Source: Candidatus Rifleibacteriota bacterium (lineage in GTDB: Bacteria; Muiribacteriota; Ozemobacteria; Ozemobacterales; Ozemobacteraceae). Taken from it: a stretch of 49,764 bases of DNA. The first letter of the stretch is position 1, and the number at the start of each line of letters is the position of its first letter. Positions 8,127 through 38,524 of this stretch are shown in pieces. The notes under the pieces were generated by a model. That model had not been told where the DNA came from. It searched no databases and was given only the letters and a program-made list of their open reading frames with translations. Position numbers and translations under genes: made by a program. The DNA lies in assembly GCA_012517355.1 (NCBI GenBank), contig JAAYVD010000178.1:1-49764 (forward strand), in the 5' to 3' direction.

Positions 8127-8729
8127 TCACTGTTTGCCAAGAAGGAACCGGGGAGGCTCCTGCACAGAAGGGTGCACCAGGGAAGCCCCCGCAGGACCAG
8201 CCGGAAACGGGGCAGACTAAAGGGCACGTCAACCCTGGAGTCCTGGACGCGGTTTCCCGCAACAGCAGACATCTGCCGGCAACTTGTACAAGTTCCGCCG
8301 ACGTGACGGAACCCGCACTGAGATCGATCAGAAAGGCCCCTGCCTCTCGTGACGCCCGGAGCCACCTTCGGCCATGGTTCCCGATCCGGTGGCGGAACTC
8401 TTGCTGGACGTCTGCTCTTCGGGACTGCACCGAACCGACAGGAACCGTGAATTGGCGGAGGAAGGGGCGGAATGGCCAAAGGGCGTTGCCAACGAATCCT
8501 CGCCGGCTTTCCGGAACATGCAGGTGAGGATGCCCTCCCGCGAGTCGACAGCCTGCCGTGAGGCCGGGATGGCACGCCGCCGGCTGCCATTCCCGCCATG
8601 AGCTTCGAAGCGGTTTTCCGGGCTGCTTCGGCCGGATCTGTCGGAAAGGTCAGGGCCTGAGGAGATCCCCGTTCATCAGAAATGACCCCGATCGCTGTAT
8701 GGAGAATTGCTGCACGGCGGGCGCCCGCC
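8127..8729. other. Intergenic region between divergent operons
   Basis: About 600 bp between the divergent promoters of xerC and the GNAT/LuxE/LuxC operon. Open frames here lack ribosome sites and recognisable motifs, so I call no gene. The noticeable content is a cluster of palindromes at 8265-8312, described separately. Confidence 0.5.
8265..8312. promoter_or_regulatory. Cluster of three palindromes, possible operator
   Basis: Three dyads lie side by side: GCAGA-CA-TCTGC (8265-8276), a perfect 14-bp palindrome AACTTGTACAAGTT (8281-8294), and GTTCCG-n9-CGGAAC (8292-8312). The core CTTGTACAAG occurs again inside the promoter at 44651-44678, and CTTGTAC occurs in the promoter at 8730. This suggests a shared regulator-binding site (inference). 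Confidence 0.4.
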
Positions 8730-8758
8730 TTGACTTGTACCGGAGTCGTCCGTATAAT
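8730..8758 (+). promoter_or_regulatory. Near-consensus sigma-70 promoter of the LuxE/LuxC operon
   Basis: TTGACT (8730-8735), a 17-base spacer and TATAAT (8753-8758). The start point should be near 8765, about 35 bases before the ATG at 8800. CTTGTAC overlaps the end of the -35 box. Confidence 0.85.
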
Positions 8759-8799
8759 ACTCTGGGGTTCCGGGTCTCTGCCCGGGCTCCCAGCCAGAC

Positions 8800-9987
8800 A
8801 TGATCCGAATCACCCTCCAGGACGGCCGCGTCATCCACTGCCAAGCCGGGCAGCCCCAGGACATTCCCGGGATCATCGACCTGTACCAACGCGTGTATCA
8901 CGGCAAATACACGCTCAAGGAAGTGTCGGACCCCGAGGCCATCCGCAGCCGCCTCGACGACCCGAACTATTTCTGGACCCTGGCCTTCCTCGGGAAGGAG
9001 ATCATCGGTTCGGTGATCTTCTCGATCGACCCGGTGAACAAGCTCGGCAAGCTGTATGCCGCGGTGGTCCTGCCGGAATTCCGGGGGCAGGATGTCATGC
9101 GGAGCATCGTCCGCCAGGGCCTCGAACGGCTGACCGAACGCACCCGCACCTGCGACGTCCTGTATGCCACGACCCGCACGGTCAGCGTGGCTCCGCAGGT
9201 CGTCCTCGAACACCTCGATTTCTTCCCGATGGGCATCTTTCCCAACGTCCGCAAGGTCGAGTCGTTCGAGACCCACGGGCTGGAGATCTATTTCCGGAGG
9301 GGCTGCCTCGACCTGCGCCGGAAGCGGCCCCAGCTGGTTCCCGAGATCCGCGAATTCTACAAGGTGGTCCGCGACGTGCTGCATCTCGAGGACGAGGAGA
9401 AGGTCGACCTGCCCCTGTCCGACCCTCGGAAGATGGGTGACCCCCTCCCCTTCGAGATCGACGATGACGCGCGCCGCCTGCGGAAGCGGTTCGACGCCCT
9501 CCAGAACAAGGACCAGATGGACAAGGTGTTCTTCCCGTTCATGGAACCCAACCTGCTTTTCCATACGCCCGACCGCTCCGCCGAGTTTTTCGTGAATTTC
9601 AACGATGCCGACGGGTTCGGGGTGATCATCGGCTACAAGATCGGAACCACCGACCTGCGCCGGGCGCTGATGTGGTTTGCCGAGGTGGCCGCCCGGTCGG
9701 GCATGCGCTACATCGAAATGCTGGTCAATGCGTTCCGTCCTGACCTGCAGCGGATCGCGGTCGATGCCCGGTTCCTGCCCACCGCCTATTTCCCCGCGAT
9801 GCGCATGACGGAACGGGGAGAGCGGGAGGATTACGCCGTCTTCTCGCGATCCTTCGAGAGCCTCGATTTCATGAACATGAACCTGGTGGACACCAACCGC
9901 CGGTTCCTCGACGCGTTCATGAAGTGCTGGTACGAGATGCTGGTGCGGTGTCAGCCCGACTTCGACGAGGAGTGGCGGATTGGCTGA
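8800..9987 (+). CDS. GNAT-like acetyltransferase with a long C-terminal domain
   Basis: A 395-residue protein. The N-terminal half resembles a GNAT domain, with the acetyl-CoA loop pattern VVLPEFRGQDVMRSIVRQ at about 89-106. The C-terminal half (about 200-395) has no motif I recognise; it includes an acidic and basic linker and a region reading FFVNFNDADGFGVIIGYKIG. It is the first gene of an operon, and its TGA overlaps the TTG start of the LuxE-like gene by 8 nt (TTGGCTGA). The ATG at 8800 fits the promoter at 8730-8758. Its substrate is unknown; from context it may modify or transfer the acyl group handled by the next two enzymes (inference). Confidence 0.75.
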   Translation: MIRITLQDGRVIHCQAGQPQDIPGIIDLYQRVYHGKYTLKEVSDPEAIRSRLDDPNYFWTLAFLGKEIIGSVIFSIDPVNKLGKLYAAVVLPEFRGQDVMRSIVRQGLERLTERTRTCDVLYATTRTVSVAPQVVLEHLDFFPMGIFPNVRKVESFETHGLEIYFRRGCLDLRRKRPQLVPEIREFYKVVRDVLHLEDEEKVDLPLSDPRKMGDPLPFEIDDDARRLRKRFDALQNKDQMDKVFFPFMEPNLLFHTPDRSAEFFVNFNDADGFGVIIGYKIGTTDLRRALMWFAEVAARSGMRYIEMLVNAFRPDLQRIAVDARFLPTAYFPAMRMTERGEREDYAVFSRSFESLDFMNMNLVDTNRRFLDAFMKCWYEMLVRCQPDFDEEWRIG

Positions 9988-11107
9988 GGGCAAGCCGTTC
10001 GAGGCGTGCGGGCGGCTGTTCGCCACCAGCCAGGCCTTTGGCCATTCCCCGGCCACCGACCGGCTGTTCGACGAGGCCATGGGGGAGGCCCTGCGCTGGC
10101 ACCAGCAGCGGTGCCCCGAGTTCCGGGGGTTCCTGGCCCGCCACGGCTTCACGGGAAAGCGGCTGCCGGTCACTCCCGAAGAGATTCCTCCGCTGTTCGT
10201 CACCATCTTCAAGGAACACCGGCTGGTGTCGATCCCCGACGAACGGATCAGGATCGAGCTGACCTCGTCGGGCACGGGGGGACAACGCAGCGCCATCGTG
10301 CTCGACCACCGGTCCTACCGCCGGATCCTGCAGATCGTCGACCACATCTTCGATTCGCTCGGCCTGATGGCGCGCGACGAGGCGGTCAACTACCTGTGTT
10401 TCACCTACGACCCGCGGGTGGCGAAGAACGTCGGCACCGCGTTTTCCGACAAGATCCTGACCGGGCTGACCCGGCGGCGGCGGGTGTTCTACGCCATCCG
10501 GTGGGACGAAGCGAAGGGCGAGTTCGCGTTCGACCTGGCGGCGACGGTGGCCCGGCTGCAGCGGTTCGCGCGCCGGCCCGACCCGGTCCGGATCCTGGGT
10601 TTCCCGGCGCACCTGTGGCAGGTGTGCGACGCGCTCGAGCGGGCGGGGGTGCGGCTGCAGCTCGGGCCCCGGTCGTTCATCATCACCGGGGGCGGCTGGA
10701 AGGTGCACAAGGACCAGGAGGTGACCAAGGACGTCTTCCGGGAGCGGGTCTGCCGCGTATTGGGCCTGCCCAGGGAGAACCTGCGCGACACCTTCGGCAT
10801 GGTCGAGCACGGGATTCCCTACGTCGATTGCGAGCGGGGGCGGCTGCACGTGCCGATCTACGCGCGGGTGCGGGTGGTGGACCCGGAGACCCTGGCGCCC
10901 CTGCCGGTTGGCAGCCGGGGCCTGCTGCACCTGATGACGCCCTACCTGTCGAGCTACCCTTCGATCTCGCTGCTGTCCACCGACCTGGCGGTGGTCGAGC
11001 CCGGGTGCCCCTGCGGGCGGCCGGGAGACACCATCCGCATCCTGGGGCGGGCGGGCCTGGCCAAGCACAAGGGCTGCGCCATCACCGCGCTCGAACTGCT
11101 GACATGA
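9980..11107 (+). CDS. LuxE-like acyl-protein synthetase
   Basis: A 375-residue member of the LuxE acyl-protein synthetase family. The ATP-binding loop SSGTGGQRSAI is at about 96-106. The central ITGGGWKVHK and FGMVEHG motifs follow, and the C-terminal KHKGCAITALE contains Cys366, matching the acyl-accepting Cys near the end of LuxE. In Lux systems LuxE activates a fatty acid as acyl-AMP and passes it to LuxC. The start is TTG 9980-9982, overlapping the upstream stop by 8 nt; an ATG is not available nearby. No luxA, luxB or luxD is present, so light emission is unlikely. The substrate acid is unknown. Confidence 0.88.
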   Translation: MAEGKPFEACGRLFATSQAFGHSPATDRLFDEAMGEALRWHQQRCPEFRGFLARHGFTGKRLPVTPEEIPPLFVTIFKEHRLVSIPDERIRIELTSSGTGGQRSAIVLDHRSYRRILQIVDHIFDSLGLMARDEAVNYLCFTYDPRVAKNVGTAFSDKILTGLTRRRRVFYAIRWDEAKGEFAFDLAATVARLQRFARRPDPVRILGFPAHLWQVCDALERAGVRLQLGPRSFIITGGGWKVHKDQEVTKDVFRERVCRVLGLPRENLRDTFGMVEHGIPYVDCERGRLHVPIYARVRVVDPETLAPLPVGSRGLLHLMTPYLSSYPSISLLSTDLAVVEPGCPCGRPGDTIRILGRAGLAKHKGCAITALELLT

Positions 11108-11114
11108 GGAACCC

Positions 11115-13697
11115 GTGATCGGCTACACGCTGGCCTTCGGCCACAAGGCTCCCCCTGCCCCGCCCCTCGAGGGCGGCCTGGCAGGGGTGCTGGCCGCGGC
11201 GCGGGCGGCGGCGCAGCGCGCGGCGGCGGCCCCGGTGGACGGGATCCTCGAGGTGCTGCACCGGGTCGGCCGGCGGTGGGCCGATCCCGCCTATCCGCTG
11301 CGGCAGAAGGCGCAGGAGGATCTTCCCGGCCAGATCGGGTTCAGCCCGGAGATGGTGCGGGAAGGACTGGACGTGGTGGCCGCCCTGTGTTCGCGGGAGG
11401 GCCTGGAGCGGCGGCTGACCGGGGAACTGGGCGGCAAGCGGTTTTTGGCCGGCTGGCAGGAGCGCCCCGGGCTGGACCACGACCTGCGGGCGGTGCCGCG
11501 CGGGGTGGTTGTGCACCTGGCGGCGGGCAACGTGTTCGTCGGGGCGGTGGACAGCCTGGTGGCCGGCATCATCACGGGCAACGCCAACCTGCTGAAGATG
11601 TCGCGGGCCGACCCGTTGTTCCCGGTGCTGTTTCTGGAGAGCCTGCGGGAGTGCGACCCGGATGGGCTGGTCTGGCCCAACCAGGCGGCCTATCTCTGGC
11701 GTGGCGGCGACCGGGCGGTGGAAGCCCCGCTGCTCGGCGCCGACCTCACGGTGGTGTTCTGGGGGGGCCGCGAGGCCCTGGCGGCGGTGCGGGGGCTGGT
11801 GGGGCCGGCGACCCGCCTGATCGAGAACGGGCCGCGGTATTCCTTCGCGGTGGCCGAGACGGCCTTCCTGGCCGAAGCCCTCGATGCGCGGCTGCTGCGT
11901 GGCCTGGCCCTGGATCTCTGCCGCTGGGACCAACAGGCCTGCTCGTCGCCGCAGATCCTCTACCTGGTGGGGCCGGGCCGGGCCACCGCCGACCAGCTGA
12001 TGGACCGGCTGGTTCCGGTGCTGGACGAACTGGCCCGCACCCTGCCGCTGGGCCCCCTCTCGTTCGACGAGAAGGTGGAGATCCGGCGGGTCCGGGAACT
12101 GGCGGCCATGGCCGAGGTGAAGGGCGAGGGGCGGCTGGTCTGCCCCGAGCGGTTCACCTACTCGCTGATCTTCGAAGAAAACCCGGTGTTCAAGGTGTCC
12201 TGCCTGAACCGGACGCTGTTCGTCAAGCAGGTTCCCGACTTCGACGCCCTGGTGGAGCAGGTCCGACCGATGGCGGCCTGGCTGCAGACCGTGGGCCTGG
12301 CCGCCTCGCCTGGGCGGCAGCGGGAATGGGAGCCACGGCTGCTCGGGCTGGGCGTGAAGCGCCTCACCGAATGGGGAGGGATGAGCCAGGGCAGCGACGG
12401 GGCGCCGCACGAAGGGGCGTTTTTGCTCGGCCAGCTGGTCGACTGGGTCAGTCGCGAGCATCTGCCGGAGGAGCGTTTCCGCAAGCTGGTGCGGGGGATC
12501 CGGCCGTCGCCCTACTACGCGCGGGTGCTGGCCGGCCGGCCGACCGACCCCCTCGATTTCACCGCCCTTCCCCTGCTCGATCGGGAGACCTTCTACGCCC
12601 ATTCCCCGCCCCGGTCGACCGACATCCTGACCGGGCCCATGCAGGACGCCTACGTCTACGCCTCGGGGGGGACCACCGGCGACCCGAAGTTCACCCTGTA
12701 TTCGAACCGCGAGTACCGCGCGGCCACCGACGTTCTGGGCTTCATCTACCGCACCGCCGGCATCGGACCGGGGGACGTGGTGGGGAACCTGTTCATCGCG
12801 GGCTTTCTGTGGACCAGCTTCAACGTCGCCGGCCGGGCGCTGGAGAACATCGGCTGCCTGAACCTGCCGATCGGCGGGGCGACCGACTTTCCGCAGATGC
12901 TCAAATACCTGGAGATCTTCCACGCCACCGCGATCGTCGGCCTGCCCTCGATCATCGTCAAACTGGCCGAGGAGGTTCAGGCCCGGCAGTCGCCGGTCCG
13001 GATCCGCAAGATCCTGTATGGGGGCGAGCACATGCGGCCGCAGACGGCCGACTTCCTGCGCCGGACGCTGGGGGCGGAATGGGTGCGGTCGGCGGGCTAC
13101 GCCTGCGTCGACACCGGGCCGATCGGCTTCCAGTGCCCGCACCTGGTCGGGGCCGTCCACCACGTTCTGGAGGACTACCAGTTCGTCGAGATCCTGCACC
13201 CGCAGGATCAGCGGCCCTGCTCGACGGGCACGATCGGCGAGATCGTGGCGACCAACCTCGACCGGGTGCTGATGCCGGTGGTCCGCTACCGCACTGGCGA
13301 CCTGGGCCGGTGGGTCGGGCAGGCCGAGTGCCCGTGCGGGTTCCGGGGCCGGACCTTCGAACTGCTGGGCCGGTGCGACGACCTCCTGGTCATCGGGGGC
13401 ATCAACCTGCTGCCGCCCGACGTGGCGGCGGGGCTGGCCCGGCTGCCCGGCGTCAGTCCCAACTTCCAGGTGGTGGCCCGGCTCGAGGACCGCCACGACC
13501 TGCTGGTGCTGCGGCTCGAGGCCGAGGCGCCCCTGCCCCGGGAGCAGGTTCTGGCCGCGCTGCGCGAAGGCAGCTACAAGATCGCCGAAGCCCTTGACTC
13601 GAACTGGCTGCGGATCGAGATCGACTGGGTCGGGCCGGGGCAGATCCCCCGCCACCCGCGCACCGGCAAGATCAAGACGGTCGTCGACGAGCGGTGA
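11115..13697 (+). CDS. LuxC-like acyl reductase fused to a PaaK/F390-synthetase-like adenylating domain
   Basis: An 860-residue two-enzyme fusion. Residues about 110-440 are LuxC-like acyl-CoA reductase: PRGVVVHLAAGNVF near 128-141 and the catalytic Cys276 in QQACSSPQ. Residues about 450-860 are an adenylate-forming domain of the phenylacetate-CoA ligase/coenzyme F390 synthetase type, with the P-loop SGGTTGDPK at 517-525, then YRTGDLGRW and the C-terminal HPRTGKIK. Adenylation of one acid and reduction of an acyl thioester to aldehyde could thus sit in one chain. The GTG start at 11115 follows GAGGA; the gene lies 7 bases after the LuxE-like gene. CPCG near the ligase end resembles a structural metal site (inference). 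Confidence 0.88.
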   Translation: MIGYTLAFGHKAPPAPPLEGGLAGVLAAARAAAQRAAAAPVDGILEVLHRVGRRWADPAYPLRQKAQEDLPGQIGFSPEMVREGLDVVAALCSREGLERRLTGELGGKRFLAGWQERPGLDHDLRAVPRGVVVHLAAGNVFVGAVDSLVAGIITGNANLLKMSRADPLFPVLFLESLRECDPDGLVWPNQAAYLWRGGDRAVEAPLLGADLTVVFWGGREALAAVRGLVGPATRLIENGPRYSFAVAETAFLAEALDARLLRGLALDLCRWDQQACSSPQILYLVGPGRATADQLMDRLVPVLDELARTLPLGPLSFDEKVEIRRVRELAAMAEVKGEGRLVCPERFTYSLIFEENPVFKVSCLNRTLFVKQVPDFDALVEQVRPMAAWLQTVGLAASPGRQREWEPRLLGLGVKRLTEWGGMSQGSDGAPHEGAFLLGQLVDWVSREHLPEERFRKLVRGIRPSPYYARVLAGRPTDPLDFTALPLLDRETFYAHSPPRSTDILTGPMQDAYVYASGGTTGDPKFTLYSNREYRAATDVLGFIYRTAGIGPGDVVGNLFIAGFLWTSFNVAGRALENIGCLNLPIGGATDFPQMLKYLEIFHATAIVGLPSIIVKLAEEVQARQSPVRIRKILYGGEHMRPQTADFLRRTLGAEWVRSAGYACVDTGPIGFQCPHLVGAVHHVLEDYQFVEILHPQDQRPCSTGTIGEIVATNLDRVLMPVVRYRTGDLGRWVGQAECPCGFRGRTFELLGRCDDLLVIGGINLLPPDVAAGLARLPGVSPNFQVVARLEDRHDLLVLRLEAEAPLPREQVLAALREGSYKIAEALDSNWLRIEIDWVGPGQIPRHPRTGKIKTVVDER

Positions 13698-13701
13698 TGA
13701 G

Positions 13702-14466
13702 ATGAAGATCGGGTATCCGACGCACCCCCGGCGCGACCTGGTGGAGGAGATCACCTGGATCGGGCGGAACGGGTTCGAGTTCGTCGACCTGTTCCTGGAA
13801 CCCGACCTGGGGGCCGCCGAACGGGTCGACGTGCCCGCGGTGCGGGCCGCCCTGGACGGCTTCGGGCTCGGGGTGGTCGGCCACCTGGCCTGGTATCTGC
13901 CGATCGGTTCCCCGCTGCGACGGTTGCGGGAGGCGGCCGTCGAGGAAGCGGTGCGATATTGCGACACCTTCGCGGCGATCGGGGTGGACCGGGTCACCGT
14001 CCATGCCAGCTGGCCGCCCGGGCTGTTCACCGCCGACGAGGGCATCGACTGGCAGAGCGAGAGCCTGTCGAGCCTCATTCCCGCGGCGGGCCAGAGGGGC
14101 ATCACGCTCCTGTTCGAGCCGGTGGGCCACGGCCACGAGAGCGAAGAGAACCTGGCCCGGCTGTTCGCCCGGCACCCGGAGATGGCCTTCCATCTCGACA
14201 TCGGGCATTTCAACCTGAACCACCGCTCGCCCGCCCGCTTCGCGCGGGTCTTCCGCGACCGCCTGGGCCACGTGCACCTCCACGACAACGACGGCACGAA
14301 GGACCAGCACCTGCCGATGGGCACCGGCCGCGTCGAGTGGGAGCCGCTCCTGAAGGAGCTGAAGGGATTCTACACCGGCACGGTCACGCTGGAGATCTTC
14401 ACGCCGGTGCGGGAATACGTGCTGGTCTCGCGCGACCTGCTGCGACGGATGTGGGCCGCGGCCTGA
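13702..14466 (+). CDS. Xylose-isomerase-like TIM barrel protein
   Basis: A 254-residue protein of the sugar phosphate isomerase/epimerase (AP endonuclease 2-like) fold. Candidate metal and active-site residues appear in order at strand ends: HASWPPG, LLFEPVGHG, HLDIGHFNLN, HVHLHDNDG and TLEIFTP. The pattern Glu-Asp-His-Glu is typical of divalent-metal isomerases of this superfamily. The ATG at 13702 lies 4 bases after the stop of the LuxC fusion, so it is the last gene of the operon. The substrate cannot be told from sequence. Its presence suggests the pathway handles a sugar or hydroxy-carbonyl compound (inference). Confidence 0.8.
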   Translation: MKIGYPTHPRRDLVEEITWIGRNGFEFVDLFLEPDLGAAERVDVPAVRAALDGFGLGVVGHLAWYLPIGSPLRRLREAAVEEAVRYCDTFAAIGVDRVTVHASWPPGLFTADEGIDWQSESLSSLIPAAGQRGITLLFEPVGHGHESEENLARLFARHPEMAFHLDIGHFNLNHRSPARFARVFRDRLGHVHLHDNDGTKDQHLPMGTGRVEWEPLLKELKGFYTGTVTLEIFTPVREYVLVSRDLLRRMWAAA

Positions 14467-14533
14467 CGATTCCCTCGCCGGGCCCGAGACGAGGGTTTCC
14501 CGCTTCCCTCCCCGCCGGCGGCGATGGGAAAGG

Positions 14534-14714
14534 CCGACGTCGTGCCGGTCGGCCCCTTTGCGATGCACGAAACTGCCGTTTCGCGCCGCCATCCGTGGCG
14601 GCAAAGGGGTATGGCCGACATCGTGTCGGTCGGCCCCTTTGCAATGCGCGAAACTGACGTTTCGCGCCGCCATCCTTGGCGGCAAAGGGGCACTTCCGAC
14701 CTCGTGTCGGTCGG
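14534..14714. repeat. 81-bp tandem hairpin repeat, two full units plus a partial third
   Basis: Two contiguous 81-bp units start at 14534 and 14615, and the start of a third is at 14696. Each unit has a small palindrome (CCGACATCGTGTCGG, 14615-14629), then CCCCTTT pairing with AAAGGGG about 50 bases on. That outer stem encloses two hairpins: GCGCGAAAC/GTTTCGCGC with loop TGAC (14646-14667), and GCCGCCA/TGGCGGC with a 4-nt loop (14666-14683, sharing two bases with the first). The drawing is a three-way junction. The element lies between convergent genes. Relatives occur at 30530-30700 and 38428-38524, so it is a dispersed family of the REP/BIME or palindromic-element kind. Confidence 0.9.
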
Positions 14715-14715
14715 G

Positions 14716-15312
14716 TCAGGGCTGACTCAGGGTCTGCCGAAGGGTGTTGCCGACGTTGCGGAGGCGGCGGGCAGCCTCCACGCGTTCCTTGACCGAGGGC
14801 AGGCCGACCTTCTGCAGCAGGTCGCCCTCGCCCGACGACTCGGGAGGGGCCGCCTGGAAAGCCAGCTCCGAGACCCAGCCGTCGTAACCGACGCCGGCCG
14901 AATCGGTGCCGAGGAAGCGGAACCAGCGGATGCCGTCGACCACCGCCCAATCCTTGCCGCGAAGGCCGGGGTCGGTGACAGGCGCGGCGGGGGGGCCCAT
15001 CCGCTCCTTCACCCACTGATCGAGCGAGAACCCCTGGTGGAGGAACAATCCGAAGATGCCGACGATGGCGAAGGCCAGGGCCAGGCGGCCGTTCGATCGG
15101 GGGAGCGGAAGGCGGGGGGCATAGGGGTTTTCGGTTTCCCAGGCGGGTTCACCCGCGGCCAGGGCCTCTTCGGGCGGAGCGGGTTCCTCCCGTTCCCCGA
15201 AGGAGGCGATCCGTTCGGGGGCGACGCCCCGGGCCCTGGAGGAAAACATCCGCAGGAAGCCGTAGGCGAAAGCCAGGATGATCAGGAGGTGGAAGACGGA
15301 TTCGGCTTGCAT
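14716..15312 (-). CDS. Two-helix membrane protein of unknown function
   Basis: A 198-residue protein I do not recognise. It has an N-terminal hydrophobic helix (FHLLIILAFAYGFLRMF, about 7-23), a charged Pro/Glu-rich loop to about residue 72, a second helix (LALAFAIVGIFGLFLHQGF, about 77-95), and a soluble C-terminal domain rich in Trp and Gly that ends in a basic helix. The ATG at 15312 follows GAGGCGGG and lies 15 bases behind the stop of the prepilin-like gene, so they are likely one operon. It might be an envelope accessory protein of that pilin-like system (inference). The gene ends at the border of the 81-bp repeats. Confidence 0.7.
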   Translation of the reverse strand: MQAESVFHLLIILAFAYGFLRMFSSRARGVAPERIASFGEREEPAPPEEALAAGEPAWETENPYAPRLPLPRSNGRLALAFAIVGIFGLFLHQGFSLDQWVKERMGPPAAPVTDPGLRGKDWAVVDGIRWFRFLGTDSAGVGYDGWVSELAFQAAPPESSGEGDLLQKVGLPSVKERVEAARRLRNVGNTLRQTLSQP

Positions 15313-38427: not shown

Positions 38428-38524
38428 CGTCCCGGCCGGGACGGCCCCTTTGCGATCCGCGAAACTGGGGTTTCGCGCCGCCATCCGCGGCGGCAAGGGG
38501 GAAGCCCTTCCGACATCGTGTCGG
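38428..38524. repeat. Single copy of the 81-bp hairpin repeat
   Basis: The order of parts is the same as at 14534-14714. A palindrome comes first (here CGTCCCGGCCGGGACG, 38428-38443, different in sequence). CCCCTT (38445-38450) then pairs with AAGGGG (38495-38500). The enclosed hairpins are GCGAAAC-TGGG-GTTTCGC (38459-38476) and GCCGCC/GGCGGC (38477-38494). The closing palindrome is CCGACATCGTGTCGG (38510-38524). It lies between divergent genes. Confidence 0.85.

Follow-up and report, generated by a model that had tools for sequence, protein, structure and literature searches.

The window analyzed here (a whole stretch of 49,764 nucleotides, from a 7.1-Mb Riflebacteria genome) carries adjoining genes for a tandem-GNAT acyltransferase, a LuxE-family acyl-protein synthetase, and a fusion of a LuxC-type reductase with a PaaK-like adenylation domain (LuxC::PaaK). 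Of 40 genomes of the phylum, 19 carry this trio as contiguous genes with an unchanged order, and it is best classed as a reduced version of a leupeptin-like module for aldehyde assembly. Leupeptin is acetyl-Leu-Leu-argininal and, by analogy with its logic, we see about an even chance that the trio would carry out the NRPS-independent synthesis of an N-acylated amino-acid aldehyde or short peptide aldehyde.

Operon layout and domain content

An earlier note, made from the sequence of this stretch, had described four open reading frames behind a promoter, and our coordinates agree with it in both respects. All four genes lie on the + strand: the tandem-GNAT gene at 8800..9987 (395 aa), the LuxE gene at 9980..11107 (375 aa), the LuxC::PaaK fusion gene at 11115..13697 (860 aa, with a full-length fusion in many relatives), and, adjoining the trio, a TIM-barrel (AP_endonuc_2) gene at 13702..14466. 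They are separated, in that order, by an 8-nt overlap, a 7-nt gap, and a 4-nt gap. The promoter, a sigma-70-like TTGACT-17-TATAAT with 11 of 12 matches, is found at 8730..8758 (+), and it is the only such site in 8300-14800 (6.5 kb; 0.3 expected). Nine other genomes from this family have a TTGACT-17-TATACT version 71-88 nt upstream of GNAT, and the promoter is weaker or differently placed in three more. Among the more distant members checked, no promoter upstream of the trio outscored shuffled sequence.

An 81-nt intergenic repeat was also found in the window, as two copies arranged head to tail at 14526-14687, along with a related piece at 38457-38486. Similar repeats occur at at least 40 sites across the same genome, and searches of G001, its sister species, and of G010 gave none. 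The repeat resembles a REP- or MITE-like element that has spread recently.

Within their families, LuxE is known to adenylate a carboxylate, hold the acyl group on a Cys residue, and pass it to LuxC, which reduces it to the aldehyde. PaaK-like proteins adenylate acids, and GNATs transfer acyl groups from CoA to amines. The first protein of the operon, already described as GNAT-like, matches Pfam PF00583 (E 5.6e-8), and its AlphaFold2 model (pLDDT 88.8) adds a second GNAT fold, with an N-terminal unit at residues ~11-165 and a C-terminal one at ~219-351. Foldseek matched this model to GNAT structures, including the tandem acetyltransferases 7q3a and 5kgh, which likewise have two GNAT folds per chain and share ~11-12% identity with the window protein. 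In most relatives, the GNAT gene adjoins LuxE.

The second protein matches PF04443 (155.9 bits) and the LuxE chain of the Photobacterium fatty-acid reductase complex (7xc6_E, E 5.4e-32). The C-terminal acyl-accepting Cys attributed to it earlier is residue 366, within the motif K-x-K-G-C-A; its codon lies at 11075..11077 (+), and the residue is kept in all 25 aligned relatives that cover the position. In the third protein, the LuxC reductase domain spans residues 37-443 (11223..12443, +; PF05893, 260.8 bits) and matches 7xc6_A in both sequence (E 3.8e-33) and fold, with the catalytic Cys276 encoded at 11940..11942 (+). It is followed by the PaaK-like adenylation domain at residues ~463-860 (12501..13694, +), which matches the PaaK-type ligases 4r1l (E 9.4e-38) and 2y27 by sequence and fold, and where Pfam reports AMP-binding and AMP-binding_C_2 over residues 508-860. 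This domain holds a P-loop, S517-K525 (12663-12689, +), and a catalytic Lys852 (13668-13670, +). The fusion, its Cys276, and its P-loop are thus as the earlier note had proposed. Loss of the catalytic Cys or the P-loop in relatives, which that note regarded as telling against its reading, was not seen: Cys276 is kept in 31 of 33 relatives and is invariant in alignment A2, K525 and Lys852 are each kept in 32 of 32, and D729, R753, and D755 are conserved as well. Both domain folds were recovered when the fusion was modeled, whereas their mutual placement is not fixed (pTM 0.55). The fusion is 78% identical to that of G001 (Candidatus Ozemobacter sibiricus BY5), a member of the same genus, and our literature search found no paper on LuxC::PaaK fusions.

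Compared with the LuxC-LuxE complex 7xc6, the window proteins have the same LuxE and LuxC folds, the acceptor and catalytic Cys residues, and adjacent genes. In contrast to lux, the operon contains no LuxD, LuxA, or LuxB, its LuxC bears a PaaK domain, and the tandem GNAT is an additional component. Scores against the NCBIfam equivalogs fall below the cut-offs for both LuxE (133.4 of 550 bits) and LuxC (130.4 of 750 bits). Since these cut-offs are not reached and the operon lacks LuxD and luciferase, it is not a lux system. Similarly, the PaaK-like domain shares its fold, P-loop, and catalytic Lys with the CoA ligases 4r1l and 2y27 but, unlike them, is fused to a reductase and scores 110.2 of the 646.3 bits required by TIGR02155.

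These scores bear on a pathway to a fatty or aryl aldehyde that involves no peptide chemistry. There, LuxE and the PaaK-like domain would activate two acids (or one acid by an acyl-S-enzyme and an acyl-CoA route) for a single LuxC, the GNAT would acylate an amine made later, and a signal or a membrane component would result. Characterized LuxE and LuxC do use fatty acids, PaaK uses phenylacetate, and both are the nearest solved structures; however, the window proteins score far under all three equivalog cut-offs, and no aminotransferase, LuxD, ACP, or fatty-acid gene is conserved near the trio. We therefore consider this pathway unlikely.

The trio as a conserved unit in Riflebacteria

In addition to the 19 genomes with a contiguous trio, four more (G002, G004, G008, and G033) have it cut by contig ends. 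The GNAT gene is nearby in a different arrangement in G037 and G028, and LuxE and the fusion occur with no nearby GNAT of this family in G038, G024, G007 (second copies), and G123. Flanking genes vary among families, which argues that the unit is these three genes. The Riflebacteria trio has no free ligase beside it and in most cases no exporter; MFS genes lie near several second copies (L039, L046). The copies with no GNAT nearby and this shortage of ligases and exporters count against a peptide-aldehyde route.

Three loci have features of their own. In G008, L063 (2323-5466) contains a 1,048-aa frame that apparently combines LuxE, LuxC, and PaaK-like parts beside a glycosyltransferase. In G024, the LuxE gene at L044 (6530-7630) is broken into two adjacent frames, possibly by a frameshift, a stop, or an assembly error, and the fusion gene that follows is intact. 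The record L005 (DYKG01000009.1) is titled Candidatus Methylomirabilis sp., and the same contig is present in G009, which belongs to the window's own family; L005 is probably a mislabeled MAG.

The earlier note had held that all four genes act together, and this view was not supported by the comparison of genomes. The TIM-barrel protein is xylose-isomerase-like (PF01261, 121 bits), and against the CbiR phosphodiesterase equivalog NF041277 it scores 55.6 bits, below the cut-off of 105. Of 42 genomes searched, only four hold an ortholog with at least 56% identity, and in two of them, the window and G010, it lies beside the trio; in G003 and G004 the ortholog is elsewhere or on a fragment. Thus, the trio does recur as a set of neighbors in other genomes, whereas the complete set of four is confined to the window and G010. 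A single pathway that includes the fourth gene, in which the TIM barrel would act on an aldehyde or ketose derived from a sugar, could draw on the 4-nt gap after the fusion gene and on the same downstream position in G010. Nevertheless, it is very improbable: both other genomes of the genus keep the trio and have no TIM-barrel ortholog, the G003 ortholog is on another contig, and the gene is absent beside all other copies seen. Given this rare adjacency and the absence from genus-mates, we rejected the TIM barrel as a conserved partner, and the gene is probably not part of the module. Of the acyl-aldehyde pathway suggested earlier, the two acid-activating sites, the single reductase, and the conserved residues and gene order stand, while the sugar-isomerase-like gene drops out as a partner.

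Flagellar genes lie upstream of the operon in the window, and flagellin glycosylation islands contain LuxE and LuxC (PMC7874193, PMC4875605), as the operon does, without luciferase. An acylated sugar or glycan precursor could then be the product, and LuxE and LuxC also occur in glycan-like clusters on Deinococcus and Rhizobium plasmids. Unlike the operon, however, the flagellin islands include ACP, KR, glycosyltransferases, and a separate AMP-dependent synthetase (PMC7874193, PMC4875605). The conserved neighbors of the trio include no glycosyltransferase, ACP, or sugar gene, and the flagellar block is not retained beside it in most other families. Moreover, LuxC from the Deinococcus and Rhizobium plasmids falls on a distant branch, outside the other rows of our LuxC tree, with a support of 100/99. 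A glycan role is accordingly quite improbable.

The makeup of the loci also bears on how the parts cooperate. For loci that extend at least 2.5 kb to each side, 23 of 29 fused LuxC genes have a GNAT of this kind nearby, as against 0 of 11 unfused genes (Fisher p 5e-6, which overstates the significance, as the loci are related). Since the GNAT accompanies fused LuxC and no unfused LuxC, the GNAT and the PaaK-like domain seem to act jointly. In genus g11, LuxC has no PaaK part, and no GNAT was found in any of the four genomes. LuxC from this genus and from Streptomyces europaeiscabiei nests among the fused proteins, so that loss of the PaaK part is likely there, in a tree whose deep part is unsure and has long branches.

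Upstream of LuxE and unfused LuxC, the g11 loci L054 (7816-15568) and L056 carry a gene for a 378-aa protein that belongs to no known family, together with DUF1538 and two SPFH (Band 7) genes; this is a different use of LuxE and LuxC within the same family. The 378-aa gene upstream of LuxE was considered as a GNAT homologue and rejected, as it showed no similarity.

Related modules and leupABCD

Searches beyond the phylum uncovered related modules in several bacterial groups. A Streptomyces plasmid carries genes for a free PaaK, an MFS exporter, a GNAT, LuxE, and the fusion, which overlap or abut, and plasmid searches found the module in two further Streptomycetaceae. Salmonella enterica plasmids encode LuxE, the fusion, a free PaaK, and a GNAT. 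This four-gene form was also present, by genome search, in two genomes of one Enterobacteriaceae genus (L140 and L141), which were placed in that family on two grounds: a neighboring PEPCK 87% identical to that of E. coli, and the presence in the family of tiny genomes like those of endosymbionts. The genome search also found a HATPase::GNAT protein, MFS, two PaaK-like genes, LuxE, and the fusion in the phylum of G135. No relatives of the module were found in viral contigs, and no DNA similar to it in E. coli genomes.

In L091 (16770-18203, in G135), the GNAT shares a chain with a HATPase_c_2 (RsbT-like) domain, which may provide a regulatory link, and L046 (11278-12765) may have a similar layout. 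At L111 (3986-12444; S. europaeiscabiei NZ_CP109155.1), LuxE and an unfused LuxC lie beside YcaO, DUF692 (MNIO), MBL-fold, and MFS genes and tiny ORFs; this cluster is RiPP-like, and its LuxE and LuxC might reduce a peptide end. Two other candidate roles for the trio were rejected: anti-phage defense, as PADLOC gave no hit, and a ribosomal precursor peptide, as no small ORF is conserved beside the trio.

The four-gene form can be compared with leupABCD, a set of four genes spanning ~5.78 kb with an adjacent transporter (PMC8283571), which makes leupeptin in K. oxytoca and Photorhabdus (PMC11480411) and is hosted by the Klebsiella oxytoca complex, Photorhabdus, and Xenorhabdus (PMC8283571, PMC11480411). 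The L140 module comprises four genes over 5,763 nt, and the leupA/leupB junction sits where a 1.14-kb LuxE gene would place it. In a primer comparison made after the leup hypothesis had been formed, the leupA primer peptide MKIAIHN aligned with the L140 LuxE start MSVDMQN at a BLOSUM62 score of 13, which is reached by 3 of 346 other gene starts, and the L140 fusion has SEQLAEQE at the position where one frame of the leupB reverse primer encodes EQLKDH. The leupA start was not found in viral contigs, in the fetched loci, or in 265 Enterobacteriaceae genomes. Collectively, gene number, operon length, and the two primer sequences suggest that leupABCD may be the same module as L140; the likeness covers these features and the first junction. 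By analogy, two ligase sites, an amine acyltransferase, a carboxylate reductase, and an exporter would match what leupeptin requires. The window differs from leupABCD in having three module genes rather than four, with no free PaaK-like ligase and no adjacent transporter, and its fusion is 28% identical to that of L140.

A possible route to peptide aldehydes

Under leupeptin-like logic, the PaaK-like domain would first adenylate an amino acid or other acid and either join it to an amine or convert it to a CoA thioester. The tandem GNAT would then cap the free amine by acyl transfer from acyl-CoA, after which LuxE would adenylate the remaining carboxylate, load it on its own Cys366, and hand it to Cys276 of LuxC. 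Reduction of this thioester by LuxC with NAD(P)H would release the aldehyde, and the product may be a reversible protease inhibitor of the leupeptin type or a signal derived from one. We infer the substrates, the order of the steps, the peptide nature of the product, and the biological role of the trio from this combination of genes. Where the earlier note had an unknown product, the peptide-aldehyde hypothesis is narrower, and it draws on how widely the module is distributed. Given that the Riflebacteria trio has one PaaK-like domain where the enterobacterial and Streptomyces versions have two, its product would contain one amide bond fewer.

A broader proposal, which we put forward tentatively and regard as somewhat unlikely, is that this aldehyde assembly line is widespread in several phyla, that the count of amide bonds follows from the number of PaaK-like domains, and that the Riflebacteria product is a shorter aldehyde, of the N-acyl amino or dipeptide kind, that acts physiologically in signaling or protease control. 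If the leupeptin-like reading of the trio is right, aldehyde synthesis of this type would reach beyond a few enterobacteria and actinomycetes into an uncultured phylum, most genomes of which carry it. A LuxC::PaaK fusion beside LuxE and a GNAT would then serve as a sequence signature for new aldehyde protease inhibitors, and a chemical role would be given to genes annotated only as "acyl-protein synthase" or "acyl-CoA reductase," some of them with the term bioluminescence.
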